This document shows positions 7,957 to 55,261 of a DNA stretch of 64,000 bases, one piece after another (position 1 is the first letter of the stretch; the number at the start of each line of letters is the position of its first letter). The position numbers and the translations under genes were made by a program. The notes under the pieces are model-generated. The model was not told the DNA's origin. It was given only the letters and a program-made list of their open reading frames with translations, and searched no databases. Source of the DNA: a virus; IMG/VR virus record IMGVR_UViG_3300019487_000019, positions 1 through 64,000 of that record; one strand, 5' to 3'.

Positions 7957-8085
7957 GTGAAACAAGCTATCGCTATGATTATTGTTGTATTTCTTGCAGG
8001 TTGCAACACTATGTCCGGGCTTGGTAAGGACATTGAAACTCTTGGAAACAAGCTGAACCGGAAAGCAGAAGAGGTCAAGAAATGA
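7957..8085 (+). CDS. Entericidin-like lipoprotein
   Basis: 42 residues from GTG 7957, one base after the preceding stop. It has a lipoprotein signal (MKQAIAMIIVVFLAGC, lipobox FLAGC, lipidated Cys16) and then NTMSGLGKDIETLGNKLNRK, very close to bacterial entericidin A/B (C-NT-xxGxGKDIxxxG). Entericidins are small membrane lipoproteins, EcnB being linked to lysis and EcnA acting as its antidote. A role in phage lysis or envelope change is inference. Its stop overlaps the next ATG. Confidence 0.7.
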   Translation: MKQAIAMIIVVFLAGCNTMSGLGKDIETLGNKLNRKAEEVKK

Positions 8086-21822: not shown

Positions 21823-21989
21823 TACAACGAAAAATCGACAGCGAACAGGAACTAGCCGAACTCATTGAAGAGCTGGTACCAGGCGAAAACATAGAGGTTT
21901 CTAAAGAAGCCTGGGAACAACTAATCAAGAAGGGGATATTAATTCCTGTGGACGACGATGAACAAGAACAAACGGATGACAAAGAATGA
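21819..21989 (+). CDS. Small acidic protein
   Basis: 56 residues from ATG 21819 (ATGA overlap), ending in an ATGA overlap with folE2. MIQRKIDSEQELAELIEELV and a very acidic tail (VDDDEQEQTDDKE). Unknown; translationally coupled to FolE2. Confidence 0.6.
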   Translation: MIQRKIDSEQELAELIEELVPGENIEVSKEAWEQLIKKGILIPVDDDEQEQTDDKE

Positions 21990-29568: not shown

Positions 29569-29586
29569 TTGTTCAGTCCCTCGTTA

Positions 29587-31533: not shown

Positions 31534-31546
31534 TTGTTGTTCTCCA

Positions 31547-39785: not shown

Positions 39786-40250
39786 TTAGACCAGCAGAAA
39801 TTCCTTTTTAAAGTAGGTGACTGTTGCTTGAACCTGTGAAAGAGGGTTATCCTCAAAATCCCAGAGCTCGTGGGCGGTCAGAGTATCAATAAGCGACTGA
39901 TAGCACCCGCGGGCTTCGGAAAGGCGCCGGAAGAAGGGATCGCCCAACAATAGGTTGGGTGTGTCTAGTGTCACGTAAAAATCTTCACCAAAATACTTCT
40001 CAAGCAGCTTTGCGTAGACCAAAGCCACTGCAAACGACTTTTGCGGTTGGTGAATCCACTCATTCCAGCTAACTGTGAAATATGAGATGATTTCAGCTTC
40101 AAAGTCAGCGTCATCCAACGCTCGGCCCACGTTGTCGACCGTAACACTTTGCCCTTCCAGAGCAGCCAGTTTCTCATCTGTGAAAAACAGATCCCCAGGA
40201 TCAGGATTCTGACTATAGTAATACTGTTGTCTTATTTGCCATTCTTTCAT
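39786..40250 (-). CDS. Hypothetical protein at the end of the radical SAM operon
   Basis: 154 residues from ATG 40250 (or 165 from 40283); it begins inside the preceding radical SAM gene. MKEWQIRQQYYYSQNPDPGD; helical C-terminal half with FFRRLSEARGCYQSLIDTLT. Not recognised. Its coupling suggests it belongs to the radical SAM system, though it could equally be a fibre-region gene. Confidence 0.6.
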   Translation of the reverse strand: MKEWQIRQQYYYSQNPDPGDLFFTDEKLAALEGQSVTVDNVGRALDDADFEAEIISYFTVSWNEWIHQPQKSFAVALVYAKLLEKYFGEDFYVTLDTPNLLLGDPFFRRLSEARGCYQSLIDTLTAHELWDFEDNPLSQVQATVTYFKKEFLLV

Positions 40251-41154
40251 CTTTGTACCAGTCCAATAAATGTCGAAAGCCATTGCACGAGTGTTCCAAC
40301 GTTTTCACTTCACGCAAATGTTCGCTTAAACAGTGTCCAAGATATGGACACGTTGCGCAAAAACCATTCATGAAGACACGCTTACGTTCCTTCTGTGTCC
40401 ACGCATAGTAATCAAGCAAAGTATCTAGTTGTTCAAAATATTCATTGTCGTTGGCATCGAATTCCAACACAGCAAACTTCCCATGAGGCGTGATATACAC
40501 ATGATCATCACTGAAAGAGTTCGCCTTTCCAGCAAGGCTATTTTCAATCAATTGTTGATTGATGAACTTAAAGCGCTTTTCGATCGGGCTGACGAGCCAC
40601 TTCTTGACAAATTCCTCATAATTCCGGAAGGAAACACCATGAGCGTTATGTTGATTCGTTGAATACGGCTTGATTTCAACCGTTTTGACATTTGCAACTG
40701 CATTGAGAACGCGAATCATTTCATCAACATCTTTCTCAATTAAGCAACGTCCTGCCAACATTAGCACATGAAGATCACCACCGTATTTCATCATGTTGTC
40801 AAACACCTGTTCGTGTTGTTGTCGACAGTCAAAGTCGTAGCTAACGCTAAGAATTGCACGTCGCCTCAAAAACGTTGGATGAATTCGAGAAAGATTTGTG
40901 ATGATACTGACTTGGCCTGGGTAGTATCGCTCTATGACATCGAATAGTTCTTCCAGATAGCGTTCTGGTAGAATCGCGACTTCCCCACCATACAGATCGA
41001 TGTATTCGATCGGTTCAAATACACTAATCTCAGCCAGCATCGCATCAAGACGTTCAAGCATCAACAAACGCCTATTCGACAATTGGTCGACACCAAGGTA
41101 GCAAAACTCGCAACGAAAGTTGCAGAAGTATGATGGATTGATCGAAATCTTCAT
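40213..41154 (-). CDS. Radical SAM enzyme 1 of 8
   Basis: 313 residues from ATG 41154. CX3CX2C at C11-C15-C18 (SYFCNFRCEFCYLG) binds the SAM cluster, and YIDLYGGEVAIL is the GGE motif. The C-terminus has FCATCPYLGHCLSEHL, a reduced Cys cluster that could hold an auxiliary Fe-S or zinc. Radical SAM enzymes split SAM to make a 5'-deoxyadenosyl radical. The start overlaps the 2OG oxygenase-like stop. Confidence 0.85.
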   Translation of the reverse strand: MKISINPSYFCNFRCEFCYLGVDQLSNRRLLMLERLDAMLAEISVFEPIEYIDLYGGEVAILPERYLEELFDVIERYYPGQVSIITNLSRIHPTFLRRRAILSVSYDFDCRQQHEQVFDNMMKYGGDLHVLMLAGRCLIEKDVDEMIRVLNAVANVKTVEIKPYSTNQHNAHGVSFRNYEEFVKKWLVSPIEKRFKFINQQLIENSLAGKANSFSDDHVYITPHGKFAVLEFDANDNEYFEQLDTLLDYYAWTQKERKRVFMNGFCATCPYLGHCLSEHLREVKTLEHSCNGFRHLLDWYKDERMANKTTVLL

Positions 41155-41606
41155 AGTCGTATATTCGTAGCAATCGACAAACGCATTCCTGTATACGGAG
41201 TTACACGATGATCCCACGATCCGGGAAACAACAGCAAGCTTCCTTGCTCTGGATGGAATGATGTCATCTCTCCATCGGGATGGTACACGATAATATCTCC
41301 TTCGCCGACAGGGTTATCATTTATGACGTAGTAATTTGCAACAATATCAGCGTGCTTTGTATGATTGTGTTTTAATAAATGGGTATTTGAATTGATCGTT
41401 GTTACACACCAACCATCAAACTTACAGGGAGTTCGTCCCGTCATTGTTTCGACTGATTCAATAATGAACATTCGCAGCCCCCTAAGCTCCGGCCACTGCT
41501 CACTCCAAATATTTTGCGGATCATCATAGTTGTACATCATCGGATAGTTCAAGATGCCTTTGACAATATCATTGAATACCGCATCAGCTTGATAGATTTT
41601 AATCAT
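41151..41606 (-). CDS. 2OG-Fe(II) oxygenase-like protein
   Basis: 151 residues from ATG 41606 (ATGA overlap). LLKHNHTKHADIVANYYVIN, EGDIIVYHPDGEMTSFHPEQ, GSLLLFPGSWDHRVTPYTGM then RLSIATNI. The layout (His-rich strand, acidic turn, GxLLxFPxxxxHxVxPxxGxRxSI) is that of 2-oxoglutarate/Fe(II) dioxygenases with the distal His and the 2OG-binding Arg. It may add hydroxyl groups to the same substrate the radical SAM enzymes act on (inference). Confidence 0.65.
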   Translation of the reverse strand: MIKIYQADAVFNDIVKGILNYPMMYNYDDPQNIWSEQWPELRGLRMFIIESVETMTGRTPCKFDGWCVTTINSNTHLLKHNHTKHADIVANYYVINDNPVGEGDIIVYHPDGEMTSFHPEQGSLLLFPGSWDHRVTPYTGMRLSIATNIRL

Positions 41607-42343
41607 CGTAGACGAAGGTGTTGCAATAATGGATTGCATTCACGATACATTTGATACACCTGACACATCCATGTTGTGTTTACGGCTTGGCGAAACGAAA
41701 GCTCTCCATACACACAACCAAAATGGCGATCCACGTCACGATAAATTAGTTCAGCAATTCGATTGTGCTCAAGCATCGTCCAAATCTCTGTCATATCATC
41801 TTGGATGTTCCAGATTGTGAAGAATCGCTCCCACGTCTTAATGATTTCTCGAATGTCGTAGTTCTCCAGCACATATTCGTAGTTGTCTTCTGTAAACATC
41901 GAGTCAAACATCCACGAAAGTCTGGGATCGGTCTTTGCGTATGACAACTGCGCGAGATAATCCGAGCGATCTACTTTCAGATCAGGAAATAAAGTTTCGA
42001 GATCTGGCAATGCACGAATAATGTGTTGCTTTAATGATAGCATCTCTTCGATGAACAATCGATGCGAAGTGTTTTTGACCACTGCCAGTGTCGCTGTTGC
42101 GTATCGAGATTCGGGATTAGCCAAGAAATCCCCTAACAGATGATCAAGTCGTAGAACTGGTATGTATCGTCCCGGCTGAATAACATCATATGCGGAAGTA
42201 AAGTTTGCATATGGTGCAGGCATATACTGATTTGTTTTGCCCGTCACATAATCGTGAAACAGAGTTGCTTTGTAAAGGTCATACATGACCTTGCAGTGTG
42301 GTTCTGCAAATAGTTGCTTGTGTGTAGCGATAAACTCGTTCAC
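41603..42343 (-). CDS. Radical SAM operon protein, GCVYG family member 1
   Basis: 246 residues, GTG start overlapping the preceding stop. N-terminus MNEFIATHKQLFAEPHCKVM; the C-terminus IYRDVDRHFGCVYGELSFRQ then CQVYQMYRECN is shared with the 50.2-51.3-kb protein (ERDVARGLGCVYGAGRYRLR ... CQVF). No known domain. It could be a substrate-binding chaperone, or a modified protein, as the family has an invariant Cys. Confidence 0.6.
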   Translation of the reverse strand: MNEFIATHKQLFAEPHCKVMYDLYKATLFHDYVTGKTNQYMPAPYANFTSAYDVIQPGRYIPVLRLDHLLGDFLANPESRYATATLAVVKNTSHRLFIEEMLSLKQHIIRALPDLETLFPDLKVDRSDYLAQLSYAKTDPRLSWMFDSMFTEDNYEYVLENYDIREIIKTWERFFTIWNIQDDMTEIWTMLEHNRIAELIYRDVDRHFGCVYGELSFRQAVNTTWMCQVYQMYRECNPLLQHLRLR

Positions 42344-43395
42344 GCTGCCTCCTTGACACCACCAAAATTGATCTCGAGAATTTCTGTTGCAATCGACTTC
42401 ATAATCTTGCAGTGAGGCTCCACAAGATTATGTTCTTTCAGGTCCTTGACAGTCTTACGGCAGCCGTTGCAAATCTTAAACATCGGGCACGTCAAGCATT
42501 CTTCTTTCATGCTTATTAAGGAAGGATCACTTTGCAGTGGGGTAAAGAATTCTTTCCCGTAAATTTCACGGAAGAATGTAATTGGATGCGTTCGATCATC
42601 CGCAATTGCACCACACGAATAGTAATCACCGCTCGGGTTTAACGCTCGAATGTTTTCATCACACTGACGGTGTTGGGGGCACATTGTGTGAAGCCCTTTC
42701 AATCGCTGAACCATTTGTTTTGTATTGAATTCCCACGGCGTCAATCCTTGCCGATACACTTCAATATATGTTCGATAGATTTTTGACAACAAATAAGGCT
42801 TACTTTGAACACCTGATGCGTTTGCATAATTGAGTTTGCATTCAACGTTCATTCGCTTTGCCAAACGAACGTTATCCAATGCTGTGTCCTCATTTTCATC
42901 ACTAATCACTGAAATGAAATCTGGCCGATAACCAATTCGTTCAAGGAACAAATTACTGACCTGCCAGAAGATGTCTTCTGTGAACACTTGCTTCTCTGTA
43001 ATCCGGCGCGTATCACCGTAATTGAAAGATGTTGTAATGCCAACACGTGGATGTTTGAATAACTCTTCCCACATCTGTGGCTTTTTGAAGAACGCCCATA
43101 AATTTGTCGTCAGACTTACCGTCGCTTTGTACTTTCGTTGGTCAAGGAATTCTATGATTTGCCAATAATAGTCGGGCTTTACCATTAGCGGATCCCCACC
43201 ATTGACAATAATTGTCGAAGTGTTAGGAAAGCGATCAAGAAAGTCGTAGATATATTGATGATCGAGTACGGCTGCTTTGTCATCCGTAATATTGGTCGAT
43301 GAACAGAACGTGCACTTGAAGTTGCAAGCCTCTGTTGGCTTGATAATTAACTCCATTGCACGTGGGTCTGTGCTGTCAATCAATTTATGCAACAT
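42340..43395 (-). CDS. Radical SAM/SPASM-like enzyme 2 of 8
   Basis: 351 residues from ATG 43395; the frame also has ATG 43440 inside the upstream gene. CX3CX2C C24-C28-C31 (TEACNFKCTFCSST), IIVNGGDPLM (GGE-type motif), and a SPASM-type C-terminus CLTCPMFKICNGCRKTVKDL ... EPHCKIM that can bind auxiliary clusters. SPASM proteins often modify ribosomally made peptides. Another Cys pair (MCPQHRQCDENIRA, SCGAIADD) lies between. Confidence 0.85.
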   Translation of the reverse strand: MLHKLIDSTDPRAMELIIKPTEACNFKCTFCSSTNITDDKAAVLDHQYIYDFLDRFPNTSTIIVNGGDPLMVKPDYYWQIIEFLDQRKYKATVSLTTNLWAFFKKPQMWEELFKHPRVGITTSFNYGDTRRITEKQVFTEDIFWQVSNLFLERIGYRPDFISVISDENEDTALDNVRLAKRMNVECKLNYANASGVQSKPYLLSKIYRTYIEVYRQGLTPWEFNTKQMVQRLKGLHTMCPQHRQCDENIRALNPSGDYYSCGAIADDRTHPITFFREIYGKEFFTPLQSDPSLISMKEECLTCPMFKICNGCRKTVKDLKEHNLVEPHCKIMKSIATEILEINFGGVKEAA

Positions 43396-43963
43396 CGAAA
43401 ACTCGTCTTTCGAAAATTGTTGGAGCGATGGGCTTCCCATAGGCTTCCATTAGAGCGCCGCGACGTGAGGCTATTTTGAGAGCCGCCTGACAATCAAACC
43501 GACAAGGAAAGAAGCTGATTGTGCGATTGTGAAGATCAGGTGTCATATACTTGCTGAATTGTTCGCCAGGAATCGACTCCGATAGAGCCGAACTTAGGTA
43601 ATTATACTTGTGCATTACATGCTTCACCGATATGGCAAAAGCTTTGATGCAACATATGGGATAGTCATAATAATATCCAAGATTGCCGTGATCATCTTGA
43701 TATTCGGCTTGAATTAGCTCCTGCACGACCATGACGTCGGCCGCAACATATATCTCGTAGTCGTCGTTGTGAAAATATGTGGGGTCGCTTCCACCATACA
43801 CATCAATATCCTGTCGTTCTGTAGGAACGATACCAAACTGAAGTCTCCTCGCGTGAATCAAGTCGATAGCATTCGCCAAATGTTCTTTACGAACTGATAT
43901 GCGGCAAGCAGCGCGGCGCTTTTCACTGACATCAATCAGATCGAGAAAATCACACGACGACAT
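43385..43963 (-). CDS. Cys-rich DUF483-like protein
   Basis: 192 residues from ATG 43963, inside the end of radical SAM 3. NLGYYYDYPICCIKAFAISV and ISFFPCRFDCQAALKIASRR: a 'GYPxCCxxAF ... F-PCxxDCxxxxxxA' arrangement as in DUF483-like and related small cysteine proteins that probably bind Fe-S or zinc. It could be an electron or cluster partner of the radical SAM enzymes. Confidence 0.6.
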   Translation of the reverse strand: MSSCDFLDLIDVSEKRRAACRISVRKEHLANAIDLIHARRLQFGIVPTERQDIDVYGGSDPTYFHNDDYEIYVAADVMVVQELIQAEYQDDHGNLGYYYDYPICCIKAFAISVKHVMHKYNYLSSALSESIPGEQFSKYMTPDLHNRTISFFPCRFDCQAALKIASRRGALMEAYGKPIAPTIFERRVFDVA

Positions 43964-45011
43964 TGTACTGGGTAGCATTTTTCGGATCCAATATAGTGTT
44001 AAAGAATTCTTTGTATAGGCAAGTTGCCATCTCTTCGCGGTTTGTCCAGTCAGCCTGAACGAAGCAACGGAACGAACATCGATCAAAGTGCTCACAACTT
44101 AAGCAACCATATTTGTCGAGGTGGGCTTGAATGATATTAGCATTGCTCTTATAGTCAATTTCCGTGTTGAAGTCGTCTTGATCATACTTCAGGTAGCGAC
44201 ATTTTACTTCACGACCATCCGGTAGTAGTGTTAGTTTATTCAACGAGTAGCATGTCATCGTGTTGAATCGATGATGTACCCAATCACTTACAGGAGCGAC
44301 ATTTGGATAATGTTCCGCTAGGAACAGAAACACTTCAAGGTGCTCGCGATCACTCGGTATCATGTGTTGTGAAAGTCGTTCTGGCACATAATAGTCAAAG
44401 TACAAGGGGTATCGAGTGTAGAGATACTCAAATTCCTCGTCTTTTTCGGTCATGATTCGCTTAATTGCTTGCTTTGTTAGCACAAAGCCAATCGTGTAGA
44501 TTTGACTGCCAAACCGTTCCAAGTTCTGATGGAACAAGTCCTTTTTGGCAACGTTTAGAGGGCGTCCTGCGAAGTCATAACTGGTCGAAATGTTCGATTT
44601 GATGCCAAGCAGGTGCAATGTATCGAGCAGTTTTTGGACCCTCGTCCACTTCGTGAACACGAGGTTCGTGACCCAATTGAAAACACACGTTTTTCCAGCC
44701 TGATTTGCGTGGGCATCAACATCGAGGGCAAAGTTGAGGTAATCGATGAATAGATCGTCTGAAACCGCATCATTAAACAGTTCACCACCCATCATGTTGA
44801 TGATGAATTTGTCCATCCGGCTATTGCGAATAAACTCGTTCACACGATCGACCTTATTCATCACCGTATTCATTCCTACTTTCGAGTTGTGATCTTGCCC
44901 ACAAAAGGCACACGCAAGATTACAAAACTCAAAGAAGTGCAGTTCAATTTCTGCTGCTTCATTGACTTTGTTTTTCAGGACCTGATTGAGTAGGTCTTCA
45001 TGTGTATTCAT
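43950..45011 (-). CDS. Radical SAM/SPASM-like enzyme 3 of 8
   Basis: 353 residues. CX3CX2C C30-C34-C37 (FEFCNLACAFCGQD), FIINMMGGELFND, and a C-terminal cluster CLSCEHFDRCSFRCFVQADW ... MATCLYKEFF. A central CRYLKYDQDD follows LPDGREVKC, a typical lead-in to SPASM domains. ATG overlaps the stop of the 45.4-kb gene. Confidence 0.87.
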   Translation of the reverse strand: MNTHEDLLNQVLKNKVNEAAEIELHFFEFCNLACAFCGQDHNSKVGMNTVMNKVDRVNEFIRNSRMDKFIINMMGGELFNDAVSDDLFIDYLNFALDVDAHANQAGKTCVFNWVTNLVFTKWTRVQKLLDTLHLLGIKSNISTSYDFAGRPLNVAKKDLFHQNLERFGSQIYTIGFVLTKQAIKRIMTEKDEEFEYLYTRYPLYFDYYVPERLSQHMIPSDREHLEVFLFLAEHYPNVAPVSDWVHHRFNTMTCYSLNKLTLLPDGREVKCRYLKYDQDDFNTEIDYKSNANIIQAHLDKYGCLSCEHFDRCSFRCFVQADWTNREEMATCLYKEFFNTILDPKNATQYNVVV

Positions 45012-45412
45012 TCGTGCATATCCGTTCGAAATTCAGGCTCGATTATAAATTTAGGGAGCGCTTGACACCATCTGGGTTTATTGCGTGGGTGATACACCAA
45101 CGCCTGGATATTTACGTCAAATCCCTCTTCCTTTTCATATGAACTCAATAGTATTCGGCGAAGCAATCCAAAGGATCCAACATGATACTCTTCGATTAGG
45201 AAGAGGATGTTGTTCTCGATATATCGAAACTCAAGGGCAAGAGGGTAGTACAAGGCATCCTGATGCCGGAAGAATACGATGTACTCAGACGGCTGTTTGG
45301 ACTGTCGAAAGTTCTCATTACTTACAACAACATCATGGCGATCAACTCCAATGAAGGTTGGTGTTGTGAAAATTGGTTCGGTTCGAATCAGGCTAGGAAA
45401 TTTTGTTGACAT
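45008..45412 (-). CDS. Hypothetical protein in the radical SAM operon
   Basis: 134 residues. MSTKFPSLIRTEPIFTTPTF, a beta-rich core (IENNILFLIEEYHVGSFGLL) and a basic tail. Overlaps neighbours at both ends, by 20 bp upstream and 4 bp downstream. Could be a small peptide-recognition partner; no RRE helix-strand pattern is certain. Confidence 0.6.
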   Translation of the reverse strand: MSTKFPSLIRTEPIFTTPTFIGVDRHDVVVSNENFRQSKQPSEYIVFFRHQDALYYPLALEFRYIENNILFLIEEYHVGSFGLLRRILLSSYEKEEGFDVNIQALVYHPRNKPRWCQALPKFIIEPEFRTDMHE

Positions 45413-46151
45413 TACTCACTCCCATCGGCTTTGCGAATCGAATAGGCTGATTTCGAATCTGCCCCGCAAACACTAATGCGGTCAATTCCGTCCAGTCTTC
45501 GAATGTACTGGCCTTGCTCAAAAATCCATAGCCGGCGCGGTCGAATCGAAGGTGTGCTAGAATCTCACTGCGCTGAAATAAAGCACTGATGTTCTCTGGT
45601 TTGAAAATCTTTTCGATATATCGTTGTGCTGTTGCCCACGGCACGTGTAGGGTAAGTGTCGTATCGTCGAGAACAGCATCATAACCGACAAGAACCGTAT
45701 CGTCCTCGAAGCGAATGTGTGATCCCATCATCATATAGGTCGTGTTGCACGACAGCTCGGTAATCGGCGTCTGCAAATCAACTGTGGCGAGTGCAAAGTG
45801 TCGAGGAAGTGTAAATCGATCGTAAGCATTATTCGCAAGTCGAAGCGCGAGAGTCTTATCTTCTCTCGATTGATTACGGCCCGATAATTGTTCCATTGTG
45901 TGTTTGTGAATATCAAATTGTCTCATCAACCATTGTTCGCGCGTCCATTGTTTCTGATGATACTCTTGTTGAACCCAAGCCTGAACCAATTGCTGATACG
46001 TCAAATTATCGTGCGGATATGGAAGTGTTCCTAACGAATAACGATACAGACCAGGAAAATAATCAGCACTCGACAAAATCGTCTGAAACAACTCTTCGTC
46101 GTTTATCGACGCAAGTTCACGTAAATCAATTTTTGATATTGTTGGCGACAT
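45393..46151 (-). CDS. Hypothetical protein in the radical SAM operon
   Basis: 252 residues from ATG 46151, inside the end of radical SAM 4. MSPTISKIDLRELASINDEE; helical first half with an Arg/Trp-rich segment (WTREQWLMRQFDIHKHTMEQ), beta-rich second half (MMMGSHIRFEDDTVLVGYDA). Not recognised. Confidence 0.6.
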   Translation of the reverse strand: MSPTISKIDLRELASINDEELFQTILSSADYFPGLYRYSLGTLPYPHDNLTYQQLVQAWVQQEYHQKQWTREQWLMRQFDIHKHTMEQLSGRNQSREDKTLALRLANNAYDRFTLPRHFALATVDLQTPITELSCNTTYMMMGSHIRFEDDTVLVGYDAVLDDTTLTLHVPWATAQRYIEKIFKPENISALFQRSEILAHLRFDRAGYGFLSKASTFEDWTELTALVFAGQIRNQPIRFAKPMGVSNVNKIS

Positions 46152-47202
46152 TCATTGCTCTCTTTGCAAGAATGCAGTCTTTTATTTGATAACGGTCCAT
46201 CATGTGGAGGATTCCCCGATCAGCACACGACCCCAGATATTGACACGTTCCACATTCTTTCTCGTTGGATTTCCTGTATTCATTTAACAGGAGATTATCC
46301 TCGAATTTCTCGATTTCTTCAATTGACCATTGAGCAAGAGGGATTCGATAATGCGGGTCAAACGAGACATATCGCTCGTAAAACATTGGTGAATAGTACA
46401 GTTCCCCATTACGAAAATTGTATTGTTTTTCAACCAAGCTATCGGTCAAGCGTCCCACACTGAACCGAACGAATTGCACTGTTTCAGGGTCTACATTGTC
46501 GTTAAACAGAACCTTAATTTGTTGTGCTGCTCGTTCAAATTCTTCGCGCGAAAGGTTCGTTTTTCGACCAATACTGAAATTGAAGTCAATGTCTGTGTTG
46601 TACATTTGCTCAATCAGGTTATGAAGGTAGACATAGTCATGGAGCAGTTCGCTAATTCGCGTCTGGGAATAATCAAACACGTTGAACAAGGCATGACTTG
46701 TGGGCGGCTGACGAAACCTCTTGAGAATTTGATGACGGGTTGCCTTCACGTGTTCAAGATAACTAGTGTTGTGTATTTGTCGAAGATCAAAAGTGATATT
46801 AATCTCGATCGGTTTGTCCGAATAGTGTTCGTTGAAAACATCAATAACATCGGTGGTGCTTGGAGTTTCTGCTAGAAAGGCACTTGCAAAGCTGATTTTT
46901 TCAAAGCGTTTTAAGAGATCAATTGTTCGCCAATCAGCAAGAACAGAAGCAGTATTGCTCGAGGAAAACAAGTCTGTTGGTCCAACCGTTGCAATGAATG
47001 GCTGATAATTTTTCCGGATTGCTGTTTCTAGCAGAACGGTTAAGTTCTGATAATCTTGTTGAAGAAAGCCTGTTTGCGCTGTCTTATCGACGAAACACCC
47101 CTCACACTTCCACTGACAGCCATACAGAACATCAAAATTTAGGTCGAGGTACAGTGTATGTGCTTCGGCGTAGCTGACACCAATTTTGTCTCTATCGCTC
47201 AT
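46126..47202 (-). CDS. Radical SAM enzyme 4 of 8, PTD subfamily
   Basis: 358 residues. CX3CX2C C29-C33-C36 (LYGCQWKCEGCFVDK). Where GGE is expected, ATVGPTDLFSSSNTA appears instead, also in enzymes 5 and 7. C-terminus CGTCQYLGSCADRGILHMMD ... CILAKRAM, three or four Cys in a fixed pattern. Close paralogue of enzyme 5 (SVGRLTDSLVEKQYNFRNGE in both, nearly). Probably a duplicated pair acting in sequence or on related sites. Confidence 0.85.
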   Translation of the reverse strand: MSDRDKIGVSYAEAHTLYLDLNFDVLYGCQWKCEGCFVDKTAQTGFLQQDYQNLTVLLETAIRKNYQPFIATVGPTDLFSSSNTASVLADWRTIDLLKRFEKISFASAFLAETPSTTDVIDVFNEHYSDKPIEINITFDLRQIHNTSYLEHVKATRHQILKRFRQPPTSHALFNVFDYSQTRISELLHDYVYLHNLIEQMYNTDIDFNFSIGRKTNLSREEFERAAQQIKVLFNDNVDPETVQFVRFSVGRLTDSLVEKQYNFRNGELYYSPMFYERYVSFDPHYRIPLAQWSIEEIEKFEDNLLLNEYRKSNEKECGTCQYLGSCADRGILHMMDRYQIKDCILAKRAMNVANNIKN

Positions 47203-48310
47203 TACTTTCTACCTTGGTCAACTTAAAGTTGATTGCATCGAGAGCATCTTTGGCGATGACACAGCGCCTGATGCCAAACGCATCCATTAATGTCAGGACG
47301 CCTCTATCGATACACGAACCTAGGTAATGGCAGGAACCACATTCTTCTTTGTTGCCGATGTTCGCATACTGAGTGACTTGTGCAGTATGCTCCCACTGCT
47401 CGAACTCTCGAGCTGTCCATTCTTTGATTGGGATCTCGAATTCAGAACGGAAACTGACAAATCGTTCATACAGCAATGGGCTAGCATAGAACCTTCCGTT
47501 GCGATAGTTGTACTGCTTCTCAATAAGACTATCGGTTAACTTGCCAAACGAAAAACGTAGAAATTTGACTTTCTCGCCAGAGATTGCATCATCAAACAAC
47601 TCCGAGATCTGCAACACAGTCTTCTCAAATTCTTCTCCTGGCAGATCATCCTTTCGTCCAAGGCTAAAGTTGTAGTCGATCGTTGTTTCGAACAAGTGAT
47701 TAATCTTGTGGTGTAAGAAGTCGTAATTCTGTAGAGTCTCGGCAATCTTTGTCGCACTATAATCAAACACATTGAAGATGCCAAAGGTGCGGATTTCCGA
47801 AAAGGCCGTCAGGCGGGCTTGGAGACTATCTTTATTGCGTGCTAGCAATTCAAGGTATTTCTGATTGAGAATTTGGGCGGGCTCAATAATGATATTAATC
47901 TCCAACTCCATATCTTTATAGAGTGTGTTTAAAACCTTCACGATGTCATCCACACGAGGCGCATCCACATCGAGGTATGTTGTTTGGAGGCTTAGTCGTC
48001 GAAAGCGATTCAAGATTGCAACAGTGGCAGGATCACGAAGGAAAGCAGCAGTGTTATTTGCAGCAAGGAAGTCGGTTGGAGCAATGAAGGCGATAAACGG
48101 CTTGTAGCTACTACGCTCAAAATCATCAAGAAGCTTCACAAACTGCGTTGTGTAGCCCCCAATGCCATCTTGGATCTCTTTATTAACATGGCACCCACGA
48201 CAAGACCACTGGCAGCCGTTTAGAACCTCAAAATTGATATTGAGGTAAAACGTATTTGCATCTTTAAGGTGTCGTGAAGCGAGATACTGTTGGTCAATGT
48301 AGCTGTCCAT
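47192..48310 (-). CDS. Radical SAM enzyme 5 of 8, PTD subfamily
   Basis: 372 residues. CX3CX2C C33-C37-C40 (LNGCQWSCRGCHVNK), AFIAPTDFLAANNTA in the GGE position, FGKLTDSLIEKQYNYRNGRF and C-terminal CGSCHYLGSCIDRGVLTLMD ... CVIAKDAL. The ATG overlaps the preceding TAA by one base. Paralogue of enzyme 4. Confidence 0.86.
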   Translation of the reverse strand: MDSYIDQQYLASRHLKDANTFYLNINFEVLNGCQWSCRGCHVNKEIQDGIGGYTTQFVKLLDDFERSSYKPFIAFIAPTDFLAANNTAAFLRDPATVAILNRFRRLSLQTTYLDVDAPRVDDIVKVLNTLYKDMELEINIIIEPAQILNQKYLELLARNKDSLQARLTAFSEIRTFGIFNVFDYSATKIAETLQNYDFLHHKINHLFETTIDYNFSLGRKDDLPGEEFEKTVLQISELFDDAISGEKVKFLRFSFGKLTDSLIEKQYNYRNGRFYASPLLYERFVSFRSEFEIPIKEWTAREFEQWEHTAQVTQYANIGNKEECGSCHYLGSCIDRGVLTLMDAFGIRRCVIAKDALDAINFKLTKVESNER

Positions 48311-49128
48311 TATGTTCCCTGAAGTGCCTCAATCATTTTTTCAACAGTTGTCTGCTTAGTACACAAAGCGACCAAGAAACTGAAGAATGAATTCTCAGGA
48401 ACATCGAAGTAGTGGATCAGACGCTTTCCTTTGAACATATACTCAGTAAACTGTTGCTTGAAGTATTTACCTGGTGTCGGGGCTGGAATAGAAAAATATA
48501 GTTCCAGGAACAGCGGAATGCGGAAAAGATTGACAACATTACTTCCAATATACAGCGGATCGTCAATCTTTTCATATTTGTCAAAGAATCCCGGAAACGC
48601 TGTTTCGAACGCTGGGATAGCTACCTGTGATCCATCATCGGTTGTTTCAACAAGCTGCACCGAATACATTGCAAACAACATCATAGAGTCAAGGAACGTA
48701 TACCAGCGCTCCATCAGAGCTGGATTCTTCGCAGCAAAGGCTTTCATTTCGTCAAGCGATAACGGAACAAATGGTACAATGTCTCGTTCAATGTTCACGC
48801 CCTTGTTGTGTAGGAGAACAGCAGCTGTTAGAAGCGTGAGTCCTTTTGTTTCGTTGATGTTTCGCGACTCCATAAAGTCCTTGAGAAGCTCCATCCGTTC
48901 TTCAACGGACGTGTCAGCGAAGTCAACTTCTGCGGGAAGATCAAGGTTCGAAATATAGGTGAGGAACACCTTTCCCTTGACAGAACTCTTGGCGTAATCT
49001 ATTACGAACAATAGATTCTTATTGATAAAGAATTCTTTGATTTGGTCCATCGTCAGTGGTGCAACCACTCGGCGAATTTCCCTCTCAACCGGTTCGATTT
49101 CTTCAACCTGTTCAATTTCTTCTGCCAT
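48310..49128 (-). CDS. Hypothetical protein in the radical SAM operon
   Basis: 272 residues, AGGAG before the ATG. Acidic N-terminus (MAEEIEQVEEIEPVEREIRR), helical body with IDYAKSSVKGKVFLTYISNL, and a long run of aromatic residues near the end. Cytoplasmic. Not recognised; placed between enzymes 5 and 6. Confidence 0.6.
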   Translation of the reverse strand: MAEEIEQVEEIEPVEREIRRVVAPLTMDQIKEFFINKNLLFVIDYAKSSVKGKVFLTYISNLDLPAEVDFADTSVEERMELLKDFMESRNINETKGLTLLTAAVLLHNKGVNIERDIVPFVPLSLDEMKAFAAKNPALMERWYTFLDSMMLFAMYSVQLVETTDDGSQVAIPAFETAFPGFFDKYEKIDDPLYIGSNVVNLFRIPLFLELYFSIPAPTPGKYFKQQFTEYMFKGKRLIHYFDVPENSFFSFLVALCTKQTTVEKMIEALQGT

Positions 49129-49137
49129 TATCGTCTC

Positions 49138-50226
49138 CTAACCTTTGTGCAACTCAATCAAGTTGTCCTGAGCAATTCGATACTTACGAGCAAACTGTGG
49201 TAAGTTCTCTTGTTGAAAGCGAATGACGGCTTTACTCAATGGACATTCGTCTTCATCAGGCCAAAACAAATCTACTTCACAGTTGCCGCCACACACTTCA
49301 AAAAATTCACACTTGTAGCACACATCTGCCATCTTCTCATCTTTACGACGGACGATTTCATCCAGAGCTTTTGTTGCGAATGCATCCCAGTTTGAATACA
49401 TTTCATCAACATCACTGATCGGCTCATAATAGGTCTTGTCAGGACACAATCCAACAGACCCCCACGGGTTCATCGTGAATGTCCGCTGAGCACAACAATT
49501 ACACTTACAGTCGAGCGTATGCCCCTCTTGAAGACTTTTTGTGAACATATCAACCTGAGGCATTGACCACGATACATCATTTTCCACATAATACTCAACG
49601 AGTTTTTGCAGCCATGCTGCCCAAGGTACGTTTCGGACTTTAAAATTACGGGTCTTTTGGTCGAAGGTGGTTAACAGTTCGAAGTCAATCGACTTCACCC
49701 CCGCAAACCTTTTTGCTAACTCTATGGGGTCCAACTCAAGTAGATGTTTTTGGGTTGTAATGGCAATCGCAATATTGACCTTTTCGTCGAGGAGTATCTG
49801 GAGATTCTTCCAGAAAAGAGCCTCTTGATTAGCGGTTGTAAAGCGAATTTTATAGTCCCAACTCACACCAATCTCGTTATCACAGCGCGTACGAAGGAAG
49901 TCAAGAAACTCGTCTGTAATGTTGTACATCAGATTTGTTTGTGGAACAATGATTCGCGTGGTTTCGTCGAAGATTGTGTCGATTTGATCACACACTTCGT
50001 GCATGTATGGAATTGGCGCTAGAAAGGTTTCCCCACCATGCAAATAGAACGTTGCTTTCTTTGGATTGACGTTCTGACGAATCGCCTTAAAGTATTTCTC
50101 AGTCGTGCTAAGTTCAGCAACTTTAATTGGATCGCGATTTCCTGCCGTAAAGCAGTGCGTACAATTTAGATTGCAGCCTTGAACGATTCGAGTGTAGATG
50201 ACATTGAAGTCAGTGTTGAAGAACAT
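49138..50226 (-). CDS. Radical SAM/SPASM enzyme 6 of 8
   Basis: 362 residues. CX3CX2C C18-C22-C25 (VQGCNLNCTHCFTAG), FYLHGGETFLAPIPYM, then a middle Cys motif CKCNCCAQRTFTMNPWGSVG with LCPDK and a SPASM end CYKCEFFEVCGGNCEVDLFW ... ECPLSK. This is the layout of SPASM peptide maturases such as anaerobic sulfatase maturases and sactipeptide-type enzymes. Related to enzyme 8. Confidence 0.9.
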   Translation of the reverse strand: MFFNTDFNVIYTRIVQGCNLNCTHCFTAGNRDPIKVAELSTTEKYFKAIRQNVNPKKATFYLHGGETFLAPIPYMHEVCDQIDTIFDETTRIIVPQTNLMYNITDEFLDFLRTRCDNEIGVSWDYKIRFTTANQEALFWKNLQILLDEKVNIAIAITTQKHLLELDPIELAKRFAGVKSIDFELLTTFDQKTRNFKVRNVPWAAWLQKLVEYYVENDVSWSMPQVDMFTKSLQEGHTLDCKCNCCAQRTFTMNPWGSVGLCPDKTYYEPISDVDEMYSNWDAFATKALDEIVRRKDEKMADVCYKCEFFEVCGGNCEVDLFWPDEDECPLSKAVIRFQQENLPQFARKYRIAQDNLIELHKG

Positions 50227-50229: not shown

Positions 50230-51300
50230 TTATGCCAATTCGTATGTTCCCAAAACACTTGTCGTACCTTCACGCTTCATGCGATAGGCCCAAGTTAGAA
50301 ACACCTGACACATACGGAGACGATAACGGCCAGCACCATACACACAACCTAGGCCACGTGCCACATCGCGTTCGAGTAGTTGTTCGTACTTGTGATCATA
50401 GATTAGATCAATCAATTCAGACATATCTTCATATGGAGCGCCCCACGCCTCGAGAACTCGTGCATAGAGCTGCTTGAAGATTTTACGATCGTAGGTGGCT
50501 TCAACGTATTTTGGATTTTGATATGAAACTTTTGAGTCAACCATCCAACGAAGATATTCGTTGGAGCCAAACGAAGTAAACAACAAATGATCGAGGTCAG
50601 ACAGATTGATTTGTGCATCTGGCGGAAGCACAGTATTGATGTCGCCAATCCCGTTAATCAGATCAGCTTTCAGAACTTCAAGTTCTTGAACCCAGTTGGC
50701 CCAAGTAAACCGTTCCACTTTTTCTAGGACAACCTGGCGCATGGGACTCTTGACTGGATCACGCAAATAGTCAGCAAGCTGGTACTCAAAACTTACCAGA
50801 TGCTTTGGCAGTTTTTGTAGGAACAATGCAACAGGTGTCTCTTGATAAAGTTTATCAAAGGTTTCGCGCGACATAATTGTCAATTCACGTGCTGCAACAC
50901 GTCCTTGCTCATTGCTATCTTCATCATATAAGAATGACTTGAACCAACGATCTTGTGTAAACATTTTGTGCAATTCGTACACGCTGTCGACCGTTGGATT
51001 CTTGAGAATGCTTTTCCAATATTGTATCTGTAGTGCTTGATACAGGTTGGGCTCTACGTACAAAACGTTTCGTGTATCACCGAGTTTCGTTCCATTGAGA
51101 TAACTCCAGATTTTTGTCTTGTCGCCACCAAGAAATTGTTTCGCAAAGTCATCAAATGATGCATGCACTTGAACGAACCGAAGGCCTGGATCAAGAAGAT
51201 CTATTTTGGACCAACGACTGCTGATAGCAAGATTGCTATAGCGAATTGTTGTCAATGCGGCATCAATATCAAGGTAGACATCACCAAATACATGAAACAT
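50230..51300 (-). CDS. Radical SAM operon protein, GCVYG family member 2
   Basis: 357 residues from ATG 51300 (GGAG upstream, six bases after the precursor-like stop). C-terminus LLERDVARGLGCVYGAGRYR, LRMCQVFLTWAYRMKREG shared with the 41.6-42.3-kb protein. Otherwise helical with no known domain. It lies directly after the precursor-like gene, a common place for a substrate-handling partner. Confidence 0.6.
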   Translation of the reverse strand: MFHVFGDVYLDIDAALTTIRYSNLAISSRWSKIDLLDPGLRFVQVHASFDDFAKQFLGGDKTKIWSYLNGTKLGDTRNVLYVEPNLYQALQIQYWKSILKNPTVDSVYELHKMFTQDRWFKSFLYDEDSNEQGRVAARELTIMSRETFDKLYQETPVALFLQKLPKHLVSFEYQLADYLRDPVKSPMRQVVLEKVERFTWANWVQELEVLKADLINGIGDINTVLPPDAQINLSDLDHLLFTSFGSNEYLRWMVDSKVSYQNPKYVEATYDRKIFKQLYARVLEAWGAPYEDMSELIDLIYDHKYEQLLERDVARGLGCVYGAGRYRLRMCQVFLTWAYRMKREGTTSVLGTYELA

Positions 51301-51305
51301 TTTCT

Positions 51306-51830
51306 TTATCTCCGTCCACGAGCACCATGACACGACGAGTGGCATGATGAATGACATGCAAGTAATTGAACAGTCGATGCTTCAGTTGCTGCTCGATTGG
51401 TATTCAAAGCTGTAATATACGTTGAAAGAGCTGTGCCGCTTGCGTCGGTACTGGCAACAGGAGCACCAGGAGGATTAACAAGTGCCTGGTATGCAGAATT
51501 CAAAATCGTTTTCCCCGAACCAAGAAACGTACAGCCGATACAATTAAACCAAAATTGCGTGTCTCGAATGCGAGAAGAAGCCAGAGCAAAGTTATATAAA
51601 GCACTCGCCAATCCTGAAGCAACAAGATCAGAAGCCGTAATGTCGCCGGCGGTAATATCTTGAGCTGGTGTATTACTCAAATAAGCCGCAGCATAAGCAG
51701 GATAGCCCGCATACGTAAAAGGATTACCTGACAGATTGTAGACAGTGCCAGCGTTTGCGGCAGCAATAACCGTCGTATTAAATTCGCTGACTACACTTGC
51801 TTTCGTTGCATCAGTTCCTGCGGTCGGCAT
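51306..51830 (-). CDS. Candidate RiPP-like precursor or modified protein with CHSS repeats
   Basis: 174 residues from ATG 51830 (GAGGAG upstream, start inside the end of radical SAM 7). A mild, Ala/Thr/Ser-rich body (leader-like, 1-155) ends in ACHSSCHSSCHGARGRR, with Cys at 159, 163 and 167. Two more Cys (FWFNCIGCTF, 97 and 100) lie in the middle. A Cys-His-Ser-Ser repeat at the very C-terminus of a protein in a radical SAM operon is what a substrate would look like. The long body could also be a virion protein whose tail is modified. Confidence 0.6.
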   Translation of the reverse strand: MPTAGTDATKASVVSEFNTTVIAAANAGTVYNLSGNPFTYAGYPAYAAAYLSNTPAQDITAGDITASDLVASGLASALYNFALASSRIRDTQFWFNCIGCTFLGSGKTILNSAYQALVNPPGAPVASTDASGTALSTYITALNTNRAATEASTVQLLACHSSCHSSCHGARGRR

Positions 51831-52812
51831 TCATATTCTCCTCAAGATAGCATGGAAGGCCCATCTCGCGAGCAAGAGCAAAAAACCCTTTCCCGTGGCA
51901 TGTTGACAGATTCGGACAACTATCGCATGCATCAATAATAGGGTGATTATCCGCCTCCATTATCGAATAAGCTGACAAGAAACCGTCAAAAGATGCCTGT
52001 TCTAACGCATATTTATGGAGGAAAACGTATTCATCGAACGGCATAATCGGCGATACGTAAATCTTTCCATCCTTGAACGTAAACGCTGGTTTTCGCAGCA
52101 TCGTTCTGCTATTGAACCTTGGATCACCATCTTTTACGTATAAGTCCGAAAACTCACGCAAAAGCTTATAGCTCTCCAGCATCATTTTTTGCCTCTTTGT
52201 CGGGCCAATCAATGAATTGTAGAGGAAAGTAAAGTTAACCTCAACAATTTTGTCGGCCGAAAGGCGGTCAACGAGTTCATGCAGCCGTACAATCTCTTCA
52301 GGTGAAAACTTCACCCCAACGTTCACGGCAAGATTGATAACGGTTGATGGATATACCTGAACGATCTGCTGGATCTTTTCCCTTAACATTGTTTCGTACG
52401 TTGTTTCAAACAGATGATTGAGAACAATGTTAACTTGAAGCTCTACTTTAGACCCATTACGTTCGATTAGGTCGAAAACATCTTTGTCCCATTCACCAAT
52501 CAGCGTTGAAGCAATGCCAACATATCGAAAGCGCCTTGCAAGTTCGGCAAACTCTTCGCTTCGAAACAGATCTTTGTTCGATTCGTTCTCAAAGATATCG
52601 GTAGGGAGGAGGTAGCAAGTCTCGAGACTGTAGCCGTGTTGCTGAAGTTCCTGACTCAATGTAAGAGCTGGTTCATACGTTCCGAAAGTATTTCCGTCTC
52701 GTTTGTAGAAACACCCACGACACCCCATGTTGCAGAGATTGAGAAGAAACATTCGAAACTCAACAAGTCGATAAGGATCAGTATATTTCCCATACAGGTT
52801 TTGTAGTGGCAT
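51811..52812 (-). CDS. Radical SAM enzyme 7 of 8, PTD subfamily
   Basis: 333 residues. CX3CX2C C27-C31-C34 (LLNLCNMGCRGCFYKRDG), CYLLPTDIFENESNKD in the GGE position, C-terminus CDSCPNLSTCHGKGFFALAR ... LPCYLEE, same layout as enzymes 4 and 5. Its last codons overlap the candidate precursor by 20 bp, the closest coupling in the operon, so this is the best bet for acting on it. Confidence 0.87.
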   Translation of the reverse strand: MPLQNLYGKYTDPYRLVEFRMFLLNLCNMGCRGCFYKRDGNTFGTYEPALTLSQELQQHGYSLETCYLLPTDIFENESNKDLFRSEEFAELARRFRYVGIASTLIGEWDKDVFDLIERNGSKVELQVNIVLNHLFETTYETMLREKIQQIVQVYPSTVINLAVNVGVKFSPEEIVRLHELVDRLSADKIVEVNFTFLYNSLIGPTKRQKMMLESYKLLREFSDLYVKDGDPRFNSRTMLRKPAFTFKDGKIYVSPIMPFDEYVFLHKYALEQASFDGFLSAYSIMEADNHPIIDACDSCPNLSTCHGKGFFALAREMGLPCYLEENMNADRRN

Positions 52813-53942
52813 TATTCCTGTCCCATGAACTCGCCGAGCACCTCACGGTATAGTTGTGTGTTGCGTTCTTGTTTGAAATGTTTCATCAACGATTTCGGTG
52901 AGGCGCAAATATCACCTTCCCAAGCAAGCTGATGACAATCACCATTGCAGACATCAAATACTTCACAAGAGTAGCAGAGAGGATTCCGTGCACTTTCGCA
53001 TGCAATATTATTCAAACGACCTGGTGAGGTTAGCAACTCAACAATATTGTCGTCGATCGAACCGAACGTGTTCTCAACGGCAGAATTTGGGCATCCACCA
53101 ATTTCGCCAGTTGCATTGATAGTGAAAATCTTTTGCTCACAAGAGCGGCAACGACATCCTGAATGCGTTGTAAAAACAAAGCTTGACAAAATTGAATTGA
53201 AGAACAAATTCTCAAAGTGTTTATGCATTCCGTGCTGAACTGTTTGCTGCCACATCTTGACAAACCACGCATCAAGTTCTTTATTCGTCGGGAAAATATG
53301 TGGATTCAAATTCGCATTTCCGTTTGGTGTGATCCGTTCGAGGTGCAAGTAGCGAACGCCGAGATCAGCGACAAACTCGAGGAGTTCAATTGGCTCACGT
53401 TCAACAACAGACTTACTCAATGATACCATTAACGTCACGTCCATCCCCTCTTGTCGAAGGACACGAACATTATCTCGCCACAAGTCTTCTTGTTTCTGAT
53501 TCGAGAAACGAATCCCTTTGTCCCACGAAGTAGCAAGACCATTTGTGAATGCTTGTTTCATGAAGTCCAATTTCTCGTTATCGAGTTTGTAGACAAGGTT
53601 CGTCGTTGTTGACCACCAAAGATTTGGCCAAAGGTCTTTACATTCTGCCCAAACAGTTCGCATATCACTGACAGGTGCAAGGAAGGGTTCTCCGCCGTGG
53701 AATGCAACGTGTGCGTTTGTAAGGATGGGGGCAACTTCTTTCAAGCGGTAGAACCAACTAATCGTTTTCGGAACGTTGAAGTAGATCTTTTTACCATTAA
53801 TTCCATTTGTAAAGCAATGTGCACAATTCAACTGACACGTTTCAGTCGTTTTCAGATAGACCATCAATTCCTTCAGATGGACGTATGGAGCAGGGGCAAT
53901 TGCCTTTTTGGCTCGATGAAACGTAATTGTCGACAGGGTCAT
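52812..53942 (-). CDS. Radical SAM/SPASM enzyme 8 of 8
   Basis: 376 residues. CX3CX2C C36-C40-C43 (TTETCQLNCAHCFTNG), HVAFHGGEPFLAPVSDM, middle motif CRCRSCEQKIFTINATGEIG with GCPNS, and SPASM CYSCEVFDVCNGDCHQLAWE. Paralogue of enzyme 6. First gene of the operon, 53 bp after the tail fibre stop with only a weak promoter-like stretch between, so probably transcribed from the fibre's late promoter. Confidence 0.9.
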   Translation of the reverse strand: MTLSTITFHRAKKAIAPAPYVHLKELMVYLKTTETCQLNCAHCFTNGINGKKIYFNVPKTISWFYRLKEVAPILTNAHVAFHGGEPFLAPVSDMRTVWAECKDLWPNLWWSTTTNLVYKLDNEKLDFMKQAFTNGLATSWDKGIRFSNQKQEDLWRDNVRVLRQEGMDVTLMVSLSKSVVEREPIELLEFVADLGVRYLHLERITPNGNANLNPHIFPTNKELDAWFVKMWQQTVQHGMHKHFENLFFNSILSSFVFTTHSGCRCRSCEQKIFTINATGEIGGCPNSAVENTFGSIDDNIVELLTSPGRLNNIACESARNPLCYSCEVFDVCNGDCHQLAWEGDICASPKSLMKHFKQERNTQLYREVLGEFMGQE

Positions 53943-53995: not shown

Positions 53996-55261
53996 TTATG
54001 CCCACTGTGCTGGGAAGAACTGTTTCCAATTGACGTCAGAACCACTTGAACCAAAGAAAGTTGGAAAACTTACTGCTGTTGTCATTGCAACCCAAGCATG
54101 GCTCGTCGCTGGGTTAACATAAATGTCGCCCGGTTTATGAGAGACTGCAGCACCACTAACATAAGCATTTGCGAATCCCGTTGAACCACTTGATGGAGTA
54201 CCAACCAGAGCGCCAAGACCATTGACATAAGCAATTGATGCAGCATTGTTTGAAGGAGCAGCAGGATACACTTGAACATCTAGACCCGTAATAGGGTTCG
54301 CATCCATTGCAAGACTTCCCGTCATATTCGGCGGTGTGTTGAGCGCCGTGCCTGCGAGACGAACATACGTGCTATTCAAAACTGCAGTTGAGGCCAAGCT
54401 ATCAGTATACGATTTGGTTGCAGCATCTTGTGCGCCAACTGGGTTTGCCAGGTTGGTGATCCTAAAGCCGCCCATATCAAAGTTATTTGGACCAACCCAT
54501 CCTTGTGTTCCACTCGACAGAATGATACCCACCCAAGATGTGCCGTCCCAAATATTCAGTTGTTCGGAATCTGTTTCCCACCAGAAAGCACCTATTGCTG
54601 GATCCGGTGGAGGATTTGTCGAAAGTGAAACGTACGAGATTGGAAGTGGAGTCCAGTCTTGTTCGAATTCATCGTACATCAACACGTTTCGTTCTGGATA
54701 GTCCGTACCGTTGACAGGTGGCGTTGTGCTCTCCGCATGTGTGCGCTCAACCCATCCTGCTGGAACTTGCTGGAACATACTGTAATAACCATACAGTGTG
54801 TTTGCTTTGATTGCTTGACCGAAAGCGTCGGTTGCTGGTACGAAAGGACCTGCTCCTGTATACCAATATGCACCGATCGAAGCTGCTGGCGCGGTATTTG
54901 ACGTAGCGGAGCCAGCACCACCGTTCACAAGAAAGTCAGTTGGAGCTGTTTGCCACACGGCTGGATTGTCTGGATCAAGACGATACCAATAAACAATCGG
55001 ACCATTCGTATCACGACGATAAAACTTTGTTCGAAGCCACAACTGACCACCAACGCCAAACGGTGGTGGCGTTGCACCATTCAGGTTTTCTGCAATGCGC
55101 AGCAAGTCTTCATCAACAGCCTCGCCCCATTCAAGGGCACCCCGACCATACAAACGAAGGTTTGATGCAGATGACGTTCCGCCAGGTCCATTAAATCCAC
55201 CAGGATTGATAGTGAACCCACCTCGGAGCGGATCGCTGAAATTGATTGAGTACGAAGACAT
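53996..55261 (-). CDS. Tail fibre protein, 421 aa
   Basis: MSSYSINFSDPLRGGFTINP, LYGRGALEWGEAVDEDLLRI, AENLNGATPPPFGVGGQLWL: the attachment-type N-terminal module seen in the 39.7-kb fibre. NNFDMGGFRITNLANPVGAQ is a shaft motif. WDGTSWVGIILSSGTQ and PGDIYVNPATSHAWVAMTTA near the end are tip-like. Late promoter and ribosome-masking hairpin upstream. Confidence 0.82.
   Translation of the reverse strand: MSSYSINFSDPLRGGFTINPGGFNGPGGTSSASNLRLYGRGALEWGEAVDEDLLRIAENLNGATPPPFGVGGQLWLRTKFYRRDTNGPIVYWYRLDPDNPAVWQTAPTDFLVNGGAGSATSNTAPAASIGAYWYTGAGPFVPATDAFGQAIKANTLYGYYSMFQQVPAGWVERTHAESTTPPVNGTDYPERNVLMYDEFEQDWTPLPISYVSLSTNPPPDPAIGAFWWETDSEQLNIWDGTSWVGIILSSGTQGWVGPNNFDMGGFRITNLANPVGAQDAATKSYTDSLASTAVLNSTYVRLAGTALNTPPNMTGSLAMDANPITGLDVQVYPAAPSNNAASIAYVNGLGALVGTPSSGSTGFANAYVSGAAVSHKPGDIYVNPATSHAWVAMTTAVSFPTFFGSSGSDVNWKQFFPAQWA

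Follow-up and report, generated by a model that had tools for sequence, protein, structure and literature searches.

Gene content and order of the locus

The window analyzed here is a stretch of 64,000 nucleotides (positions 1 to 64,000 of IMG/VR record IMGVR_UViG_3300019487_000019) and forms part of a 183,277-base virus record. From 53942 down to 40213, all on the minus strand, it carries a cassette with eight radical SAM genes (at 52812, 51811, 49138, 47192, 46126, 43950, 42340, and 40213), each of which has the cluster motif CX3CX2C. The rest of the cassette consists of two phrog_36207-type genes, one phrog_20767 gene, a 2OG-Fe(II) oxygenase, a DUF483 protein, and two orphans. Embedded in it, at 51306-51830, is an open reading frame of 174 residues (P0001). 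The protein, whose sequence ends LLACHSSCHSSCHGARGRR, has a folded body and closes with the 16-residue tail CHSSCHSSCHGARGRR (51309-51356): three Cys-His-x-Ser/Ala units, then RGRR. We call this gene, and its relatives elsewhere, the tagged gene.

The operon is headed by SPASM-A (52812-53942), a radical SAM enzyme of the phrog_1802 type (E 1.4e-60) and the constant companion of the tail. Its CX3CX2C motif reads CQLNCAHC in the window, with cysteines invariant across 28 alignment rows. It also displays the SPASM cysteine pattern CX9-15GX4C...CX2CX5CX3C...C, with C268, G279, C284, C323, C326, C332, C336, and C346 invariant; TIGR04085 scores 25.5 bits, slightly below its 27-bit cut-off. Between SPASM-A and the tagged gene lies one extra radical SAM gene (51811-52812, motif CNMGCRGC), as in L027, L095, and L129. 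The tagged gene starts 20 nt within its 3' end, an overlap already noted in a sequence-only reading of this DNA, where the extra gene was called enzyme 7. Its type occurs in only 7 other loci, and the consistent partner of the tail is SPASM-A.

Across loci, SPASM-A usually comes first, followed by the tagged gene, phrog_20767, phrog_36207, and then radical SAM genes of the CNLxCxFC, CNFKCTFC, and CNFRCxFC types, sometimes with a 2OG oxygenase between the first and second of these; gene ends overlap or stand a few bases apart. In the window, the tagged gene is followed by a phrog_36207 partner (50230-51357; E 9e-19; 74 loci) whose start lies within the tail codons, a second SPASM-type radical SAM enzyme that is phrog_1802-like (49138-50226; E 1.2e-33; 202 bits to the SPASM-A profile), and the phrog_20767 partner (48310-49128; E 5.4e-62). 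The last of these is near-universal in the operon (110 loci), and its AlphaFold2 model is confident (pLDDT 92). Then come a phrog_31457 radical SAM protein with the motif CQWSCRGC (47192-48310; E 1.6e-81), a radical SAM protein recognized by its CX3CX2C motif and by clustering (46126-47202, CQWKCEGC), and two genes with no family match (45393-46151 and 45008-45412). The CNLxCxFC-type enzyme (43950-45011; 59 loci) is followed by the DUF483 gene (43385-44095; PF04467 29.1 bits, above cut-off) and the CNFKCTFC-type enzyme (42340-43440; 35 loci). A second, shorter phrog_36207-like partner (41603-42343) is tied to the family at 50230 by shared matches and alignment. The cassette closes with the 2OG-Fe(II) oxygenase (41151-41639; phrog_81 E 2.4e-12; PF13759 27.4 bits; relatives in 34 loci) and the CNFRCxFC-type enzyme (40213-41217; 29 loci). 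The Burkholderia phages SURPRISE13 (L142) and FLC6 (L146) have a cassette with two 'dihydrofolate reductase' genes, two 2OG oxygenases, and a cupin/JmjC_2-like protein, which suggests further tailoring steps.

Elsewhere in the window, an A-type Fe-S carrier of the IscA/ErpA type (16357-16689, plus strand; PF01521 70.4 bits) could plausibly supply clusters to the radical SAM enzymes. Among 23 other long records that bear the tail, 7 also encode such a carrier (8 of 24 with the window), and three of the carrier-encoding records have two copies. The window further encodes a phage iron/manganese superoxide dismutase (25693-26322, minus strand), which possibly protects Fe-S enzymes, a macro-domain protein (17635-18117, plus strand), and a FolE2-type GTP cyclohydrolase I (21986-23032, plus strand; PF02649) overlapped by a uracil-DNA glycosylase reading frame (22662-23672). 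Positions 1-8000 have a GC content of 54-58% against about 45% across most of the window, and may mark a separate module or the seam of a chimera.

A conserved C-terminal tail

The Cys-His repeat tail that the sequence-only reading had picked out is real, and the CHxS tail is beyond chance: the DNA pattern CHxxCHxxCHxxRxRR-stop is found in at least 120 IMG/VR stretches, and the permuted pattern HCxxHCxxHCxxRxRR-stop has no match in IMG/VR. Among the matches listed (122 loci), all encode a reading frame with the tail at its end except L001, a copy of the window that ends inside the tagged gene. The 144 tail-ending reading frames among these matches are mostly 125-300 residues long. Positions that the pattern leaves free are kept as well in these frames: Ser at -13 (133/144), Ser at -5 (131/144), Gly at -3 (131/144), and, likewise conserved, Ser at -9. 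A total of 171 distinct tail DNAs encode 86 peptides, with the codons for Cys, His, Ser, and Arg all in free use. Since codons are free and residues fixed, selection acts on the peptide and conservation is at the protein level; a DNA-level element was set aside as an explanation of the repeat for the same reason. A role of the tail as a degron was also considered and set aside.

The general form of the tail is CH-x-[S/N], repeated, with SRGRR as the usual closure. The number of units runs from two (L181) to five (L234, CHCSCHSSCHSSCHSSCHSSRARR); the tagged protein of L033 has four CHxx units and adjoins seven consecutive radical SAM genes. CHx[S/N] repeats are C-terminal in 312 cases versus 2 flagged as internal, one of which is the five-unit tail itself. 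Variation is informative. One group of loci lacks RxRR and ends CHSNCHGSCHGS[I/L]; in all, RxRR is lost and the CHx[S/N] units are kept in 22-23 loci. Loci L229-L231 end CHSSCHSSHSSRNRR or CHSACHSSHSSRNRR: the third Cys is lost, and His-Ser-Ser is kept; the latter type is seen in five contigs. A search with phrog_20767 brought in the variant tails of L181 (CHSNCHINRSRR) and L200 (CHYSCFTSSCHFSRGRR), the latter with Phe in place of His in the second unit. A scan of IMG/VR turned up no case of His-to-Phe/Tyr exchange at the second His, which means that exchange among aromatic residues is not general. The residue two positions after His is Ser, next Asn, and rarely Ala, Gln, Lys, Arg, or Val. In most tails, Cys and His are conserved to the same degree.

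The stretch CHSSCH includes C-x3-C-H, as expected if the pattern bound a c-type heme. We regard heme binding as highly improbable: it leaves the conservation of Ser/Asn and the pairing with radical SAM genes unexplained, and no cytochrome c maturation gene was recognized among the tested cassette proteins.

The tail pattern also occurs in 19 contigs of bacterial and archaeal genomes. Sixteen are metagenome-bin contigs with an in-frame tail, and 15 of these 16 have a radical SAM gene within 8 kb of it. The matches in Frankia, Pseudoalteromonas, and Bordetella isolates were set aside as chance, having neither a useful in-frame reading frame nor a radical SAM gene. Several viral loci (L003, L026, L035, L044, L086, and others) are paired, with a second tagged gene in tandem at a distance of about 380-420 nt from the first; they often continue with a radical SAM gene of the CxxGCLGC type.

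One tail on many bodies

BLAST sorts the bodies of the tagged proteins into two families, one with 91 members and one with 51 (the tandem pairs), and leaves the others as singletons. The bodies differ, and the same type of tail is found on both families and on the singletons. In the window's family, mean column identity of the body is 29% versus 53% for SPASM-A. The match of P0001 to phrog_35144 covers the tail only (residues 149-174 against positions 161-186 of a 186-position profile). Pfam and NCBIfam hold no family covering the tagged protein; a search for related loci with the window protein recovered only its own near-identical contig; and tblastn of INPHARED with the whole protein, the 26-residue tail, or a paired-type protein gave zero matches.

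AlphaFold2 predicts a folded alpha/beta body for the window's family (pLDDT 83) and a tail of low confidence (pLDDT 54-60), so the model lends no structural support to a cross-link. Neither a profile search of PDB sequences nor a comparison with PDB folds found a relative of the body or of phrog_20767, which leaves both folds without a functional clue and is not evidence for a new fold. The only fold matches of the body in BFVD are gp170 of Agrobacterium phage Atu_ph07 and uncharacterized phage proteins.

On this model, the body is a folded domain and not a classical short leader. The sequence-only reading had noted a Ser/Thr/Ala-rich body and offered a RiPP precursor with a long leader, or a virion protein with a crosslinked tail; the predicted fold speaks against the first, and the second is favored by the genomic setting described below. 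A secreted RiPP, with the modified tail cut from the body to act as a small antimicrobial, a signal, or a superinfection-exclusion factor, would account for the conserved, repeated core at the very C-terminus and for the SPASM enzymes encoded next to it. We consider it unlikely, given a body predicted to be a folded conserved domain, a gene located in virion gene clusters, and no peptidase or transporter recognized among the tested cassette proteins.

A single tail type on unrelated bodies is also what one would see if the tail served only to dock the enzymes, with the body as the site of modification. The body residues are poorly conserved, however, and a unit number that varies from two to five (L181, L234) together with a dispensable RxRR suits a substrate core better; docking as the sole role appears quite improbable to us.

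Pairing of the tail with SPASM-A

The sequence-only reading had suggested a search for C-terminal CH repeats beside radical SAM genes. Among the 122 tailed loci listed, a radical SAM gene lies in the flank of 115 and elsewhere in the same record in the other 7; homologs devoid of such a gene, which would have spoken against the reading, are absent from these 122 records.

Because the tail had served as bait in this first search, the search was repeated with partner genes instead. The phrog_20767 alignment alone retrieved 80 IMG/VR loci, of which 77 have the strict tail, 2 a variant, and 1 none nearby. The tail is thus borne by 79 of the 80; the exception, L148, lies on a contig with a tail elsewhere (L305). 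The SPASM-A alignment alone likewise retrieved 80 IMG/VR loci: 47 with the strict tail, 26 with a variant, and 7 ending at a contig edge. The repeat is present in 73 of 73 complete SPASM-A loci, a count that leaves out the 7 where the contig ends before the downstream gene is complete. A lack of conservation, the other outcome that would have counted against the reading, is not what these tail-free searches returned.

Cultured phages show the same association. In INPHARED, where members were reached only via partner gene and enzyme profiles, 7 records match SPASM-A, the same ones match phrog_20767, and a tagged gene with the tail was verified in each of six phages, which have the operon as well: the Chiangmaivirus jumbo phages FLC6, FLC8, and SURPRISE13, Pseudomonas phage pPa_SNUABM_DT01, Agrobacterium phage Atu_ph07, and Sinorhizobium phage Phosso. 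The hosts of these jumbo phages are Burkholderia, Pseudomonas, Agrobacterium, and Sinorhizobium, and the tagged gene is annotated in the phages merely as 'hypothetical protein'. In FLC6, gp71 is SPASM-A and gp72 the tagged protein. Among records with atypical or paired tagged genes, SPASM-A is found in 20 of 26 (weakest E 9.6e-133); the remaining 6 are fragments of 5.6-38.7 kb.

The retention of SPASM-A in complete, cultured, and atypical records makes it the common denominator. The tail is paired exclusively with SPASM-A, with the reservation that the contigs are mutually related and locus counts are not counts of independent events. Enzyme and tail stay together while the bodies that carry this one tail are unrelated, and from this we infer that the tail is modified by SPASM-A. 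Judged from these sequence comparisons, the tail is very likely the substrate of a radical SAM enzyme and would itself be the modified site. Its invariable pairing, in near-invariant form, with one such enzyme implies that it is probably cross-linked chemically before use, most likely on the virus particle.

Genomic setting and virion location

The cassette of the window is flanked by tail-fiber-like genes: directly upstream a tail-fiber-like protein (53996-55261, minus strand; phrog_1640 and phrog_2710, tail/tail fiber, E ~1e-9) and downstream a tail protein (37520-39730, minus strand; phrog_11660, E 1.6e-24). Adjoining the cassette, the region 28882-37506 (minus strand) encodes very long repetitive, probably fibrous proteins, with AVAIG-type repeats reminiscent of YadA heads and a Gly/Thr-rich repeat protein at 31547-33775. 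In sampled loci, the genes upstream of the operon include tail-fiber and virion structural proteins, and in FLC6, SURPRISE13, and DT01, the cassette comes after virion structural, baseplate, or spike genes.

For Atu_ph07, PMC6102473 reports a virion proteome derived mostly from CDS 31-76, 170-215, and 284-329. The tagged protein is gp170, the first CDS of the second cluster, and the numbering agrees with the phage record (portal gp198, prohead core gp204, baseplate gp181). The position suggests that the tagged protein is in the virion; each of the three clusters comprises exactly 46 CDS, however, and the borders may have been set arbitrarily rather than by the data. Together, the tail-fiber and baseplate setting and the Atu_ph07 cluster favor a virion protein with a cross-linked tail over a small released RiPP, and the interpretation given in the sequence-only reading is thereby supported in part. 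Virion location thus appears likely, on weaker evidence than the pairing.

The same setting raises the possibility of a metal-binding tip, in which Cys and His of several subunits hold Fe, Zn, or Cu at an oligomeric fiber end while the enzymes act elsewhere. Phage spike and fiber tips are known to coordinate metals via His, and here Cys-His-rich repeats end a protein encoded beside tail-fiber genes. A metal tip would explain neither the presence of SPASM-A in every complete tail locus nor the conservation of Ser/Asn at the last unit position, and we hold it to be an improbable account of the tail.

Relation to known systems

Two hallmarks of RiPP precursors are present at these loci: a neighboring gene of the peptide-modifying radical SAM/SPASM kind, and a repeated conserved C-terminal core, here of two to five CHx[S/N] units. 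The comparison suggests a system that is RiPP-like in operation, with the tagged protein as a RiPP-like candidate substrate. A close analogy is with the triceptides, whose SPASM enzymes XncB, OscB, MscB, HaaB, and YhhB form three-residue cyclophanes (PMC11002830). As in triceptides, a SPASM enzyme gene adjoins that of a candidate substrate with a repeated aromatic-x-X motif. The triceptide motif, an aromatic residue followed at i+2 by an X3 residue with a free beta-carbon, is matched by His-x-[S/N/A/Q/K/R], a likeness of motif and not of bond. Proven triceptide targets include His-x-Ala, His-x-Arg, and Phe-x-Ser (PMC11002830), comparable to the phage His-x-Ser/Asn. There are differences as well: triceptides derive from small bacterial precursors with a leader, usually with exporters, whereas the candidate phage substrate is a folded protein, and the phage unit has an extra invariant Cys. 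Unlike triceptide enzymes, SPASM-A is far below the models of YhhB (27.2 bits; cut-off 445), FxsB (23.4 bits; cut-off 370), and related cyclophane maturases. Against the named RiPP-maturase models in general, it falls far below all cut-offs, the best being DynA, anaerobic sulfatase maturase, and DarE.

The Hxs systems (HxsA/B/C/D) resemble the phage operon in placing His-x-Ser repeat proteins beside radical SAM enzymes. P0001 has no Hxs family match in the NCBIfam search, and the only Hxs match seen is a partial one of the window enzyme at 42340-43440 to HxsC (33.6 bits; cut-off 267.9).

Radical SAM arrays have been described in phages before. In a 183-kb T4-like marine genome, an A-type carrier accompanies 12 radical SAM genes (PMC5332604), and pelagimyophage radical SAM cassettes sit in the hypervariable host recognition cluster (PMC7029224). 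These arrays in the hypervariable tail-fiber island of T4-like phages are probably the same genomic phenomenon. The available portions of both papers treat the genes as cassettes or as Fe-S-related or auxiliary and give no substrate. In the open-licence literature searched, these genes likewise figure as cassettes or auxiliary genes and nothing more, and no substrate is named; a prior description may exist elsewhere.

Proposed mechanism and chemistry

We propose that these phages encode a radical SAM maturation operon with the tagged reading frame as its substrate protein. SPASM-A (52812-53942) would act on the C-terminal tail, with its two to five units of Cys-His-x-Ser/Asn and, in most cases, a closing SRGRR, and the accessory genes (phrog_20767, phrog_36207, more radical SAM enzymes, and 2OG-Fe(II) oxygenases or cupins) may guide or extend the modification. 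The modified tail would stay on the body as the rigid tip of a virion protein associated with the tail or host recognition. The A-type carrier (16357-16689) may help to load the many Fe-S enzymes. Taken as a whole, from tagged substrate through SPASM-A to a product on a virion protein, we judge this proposal to be rather likely.

The chemistry is its least certain part. The preferred candidate is a set of three-residue cyclophanes, in which C-C cross-links would join each His to the beta-carbon of the Ser or Asn at i+2. They are preferred because His-x-Ser survives the loss of Cys or of RxRR, and because the choice of residue at the third position fits; bonds of this spacing made by SPASM enzymes are on record between His and Ala or Arg and between Phe and Ser (PMC11002830). 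The near-invariance of Cys is left unexplained by a pure His-x-Ser chemistry, so Cys would need a second role: a thioether, a disulfide, a metal, or another step.

The main rival starts from that residue. SPASM-A may modify the tail via Cys, through thioethers of the sactipeptide or ranthipeptide kind or through Cys-His links, with His and Ser secondary; thioethers on Cys were among the options named in the sequence-only reading. Cys is invariant in nearly all units, and Cys-x3 repeats are known SPASM targets; TIGR04115, the CXXX-repeat family, does match SPASM-A, weakly, at 16.4 bits against a cut-off of 350. Yet L229-L231, of the five-contig variant, drop the third Cys and keep His-x-Ser, and we see Cys linkage as possible, with the balance leaning against it.

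Returning to the cyclophanes, a broader and tentative extension, to which we give somewhat less than an even chance, is that a large share of the aquatic and jumbo tailed phages equip a virion protein, either of the tail or for host recognition, with a polycyclic cross-linked tip installed by radical SAM enzymes and built of His-x-Ser cyclophanes, possibly with Cys chemistry and oxygenase steps.

Implications

Ocean and jumbo phages repeatedly carry radical SAM genes, for which the usual interpretation is auxiliary metabolism. One conserved enzyme family is now paired with one conserved candidate peptide substrate across very diverse phages, and this pairing makes the function of phage radical SAM genes directly testable in cultured phages. 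If the particle carries the tail in cross-linked form, tail and enzyme would provide a compact new tag-plus-enzyme pair for protein engineering. If the proposal is true, a part of the virion would be built by radical SAM chemistry, RiPP-type chemistry would have a structural use in viruses, and many radical SAM genes at present classed as auxiliary metabolic genes would gain a function.
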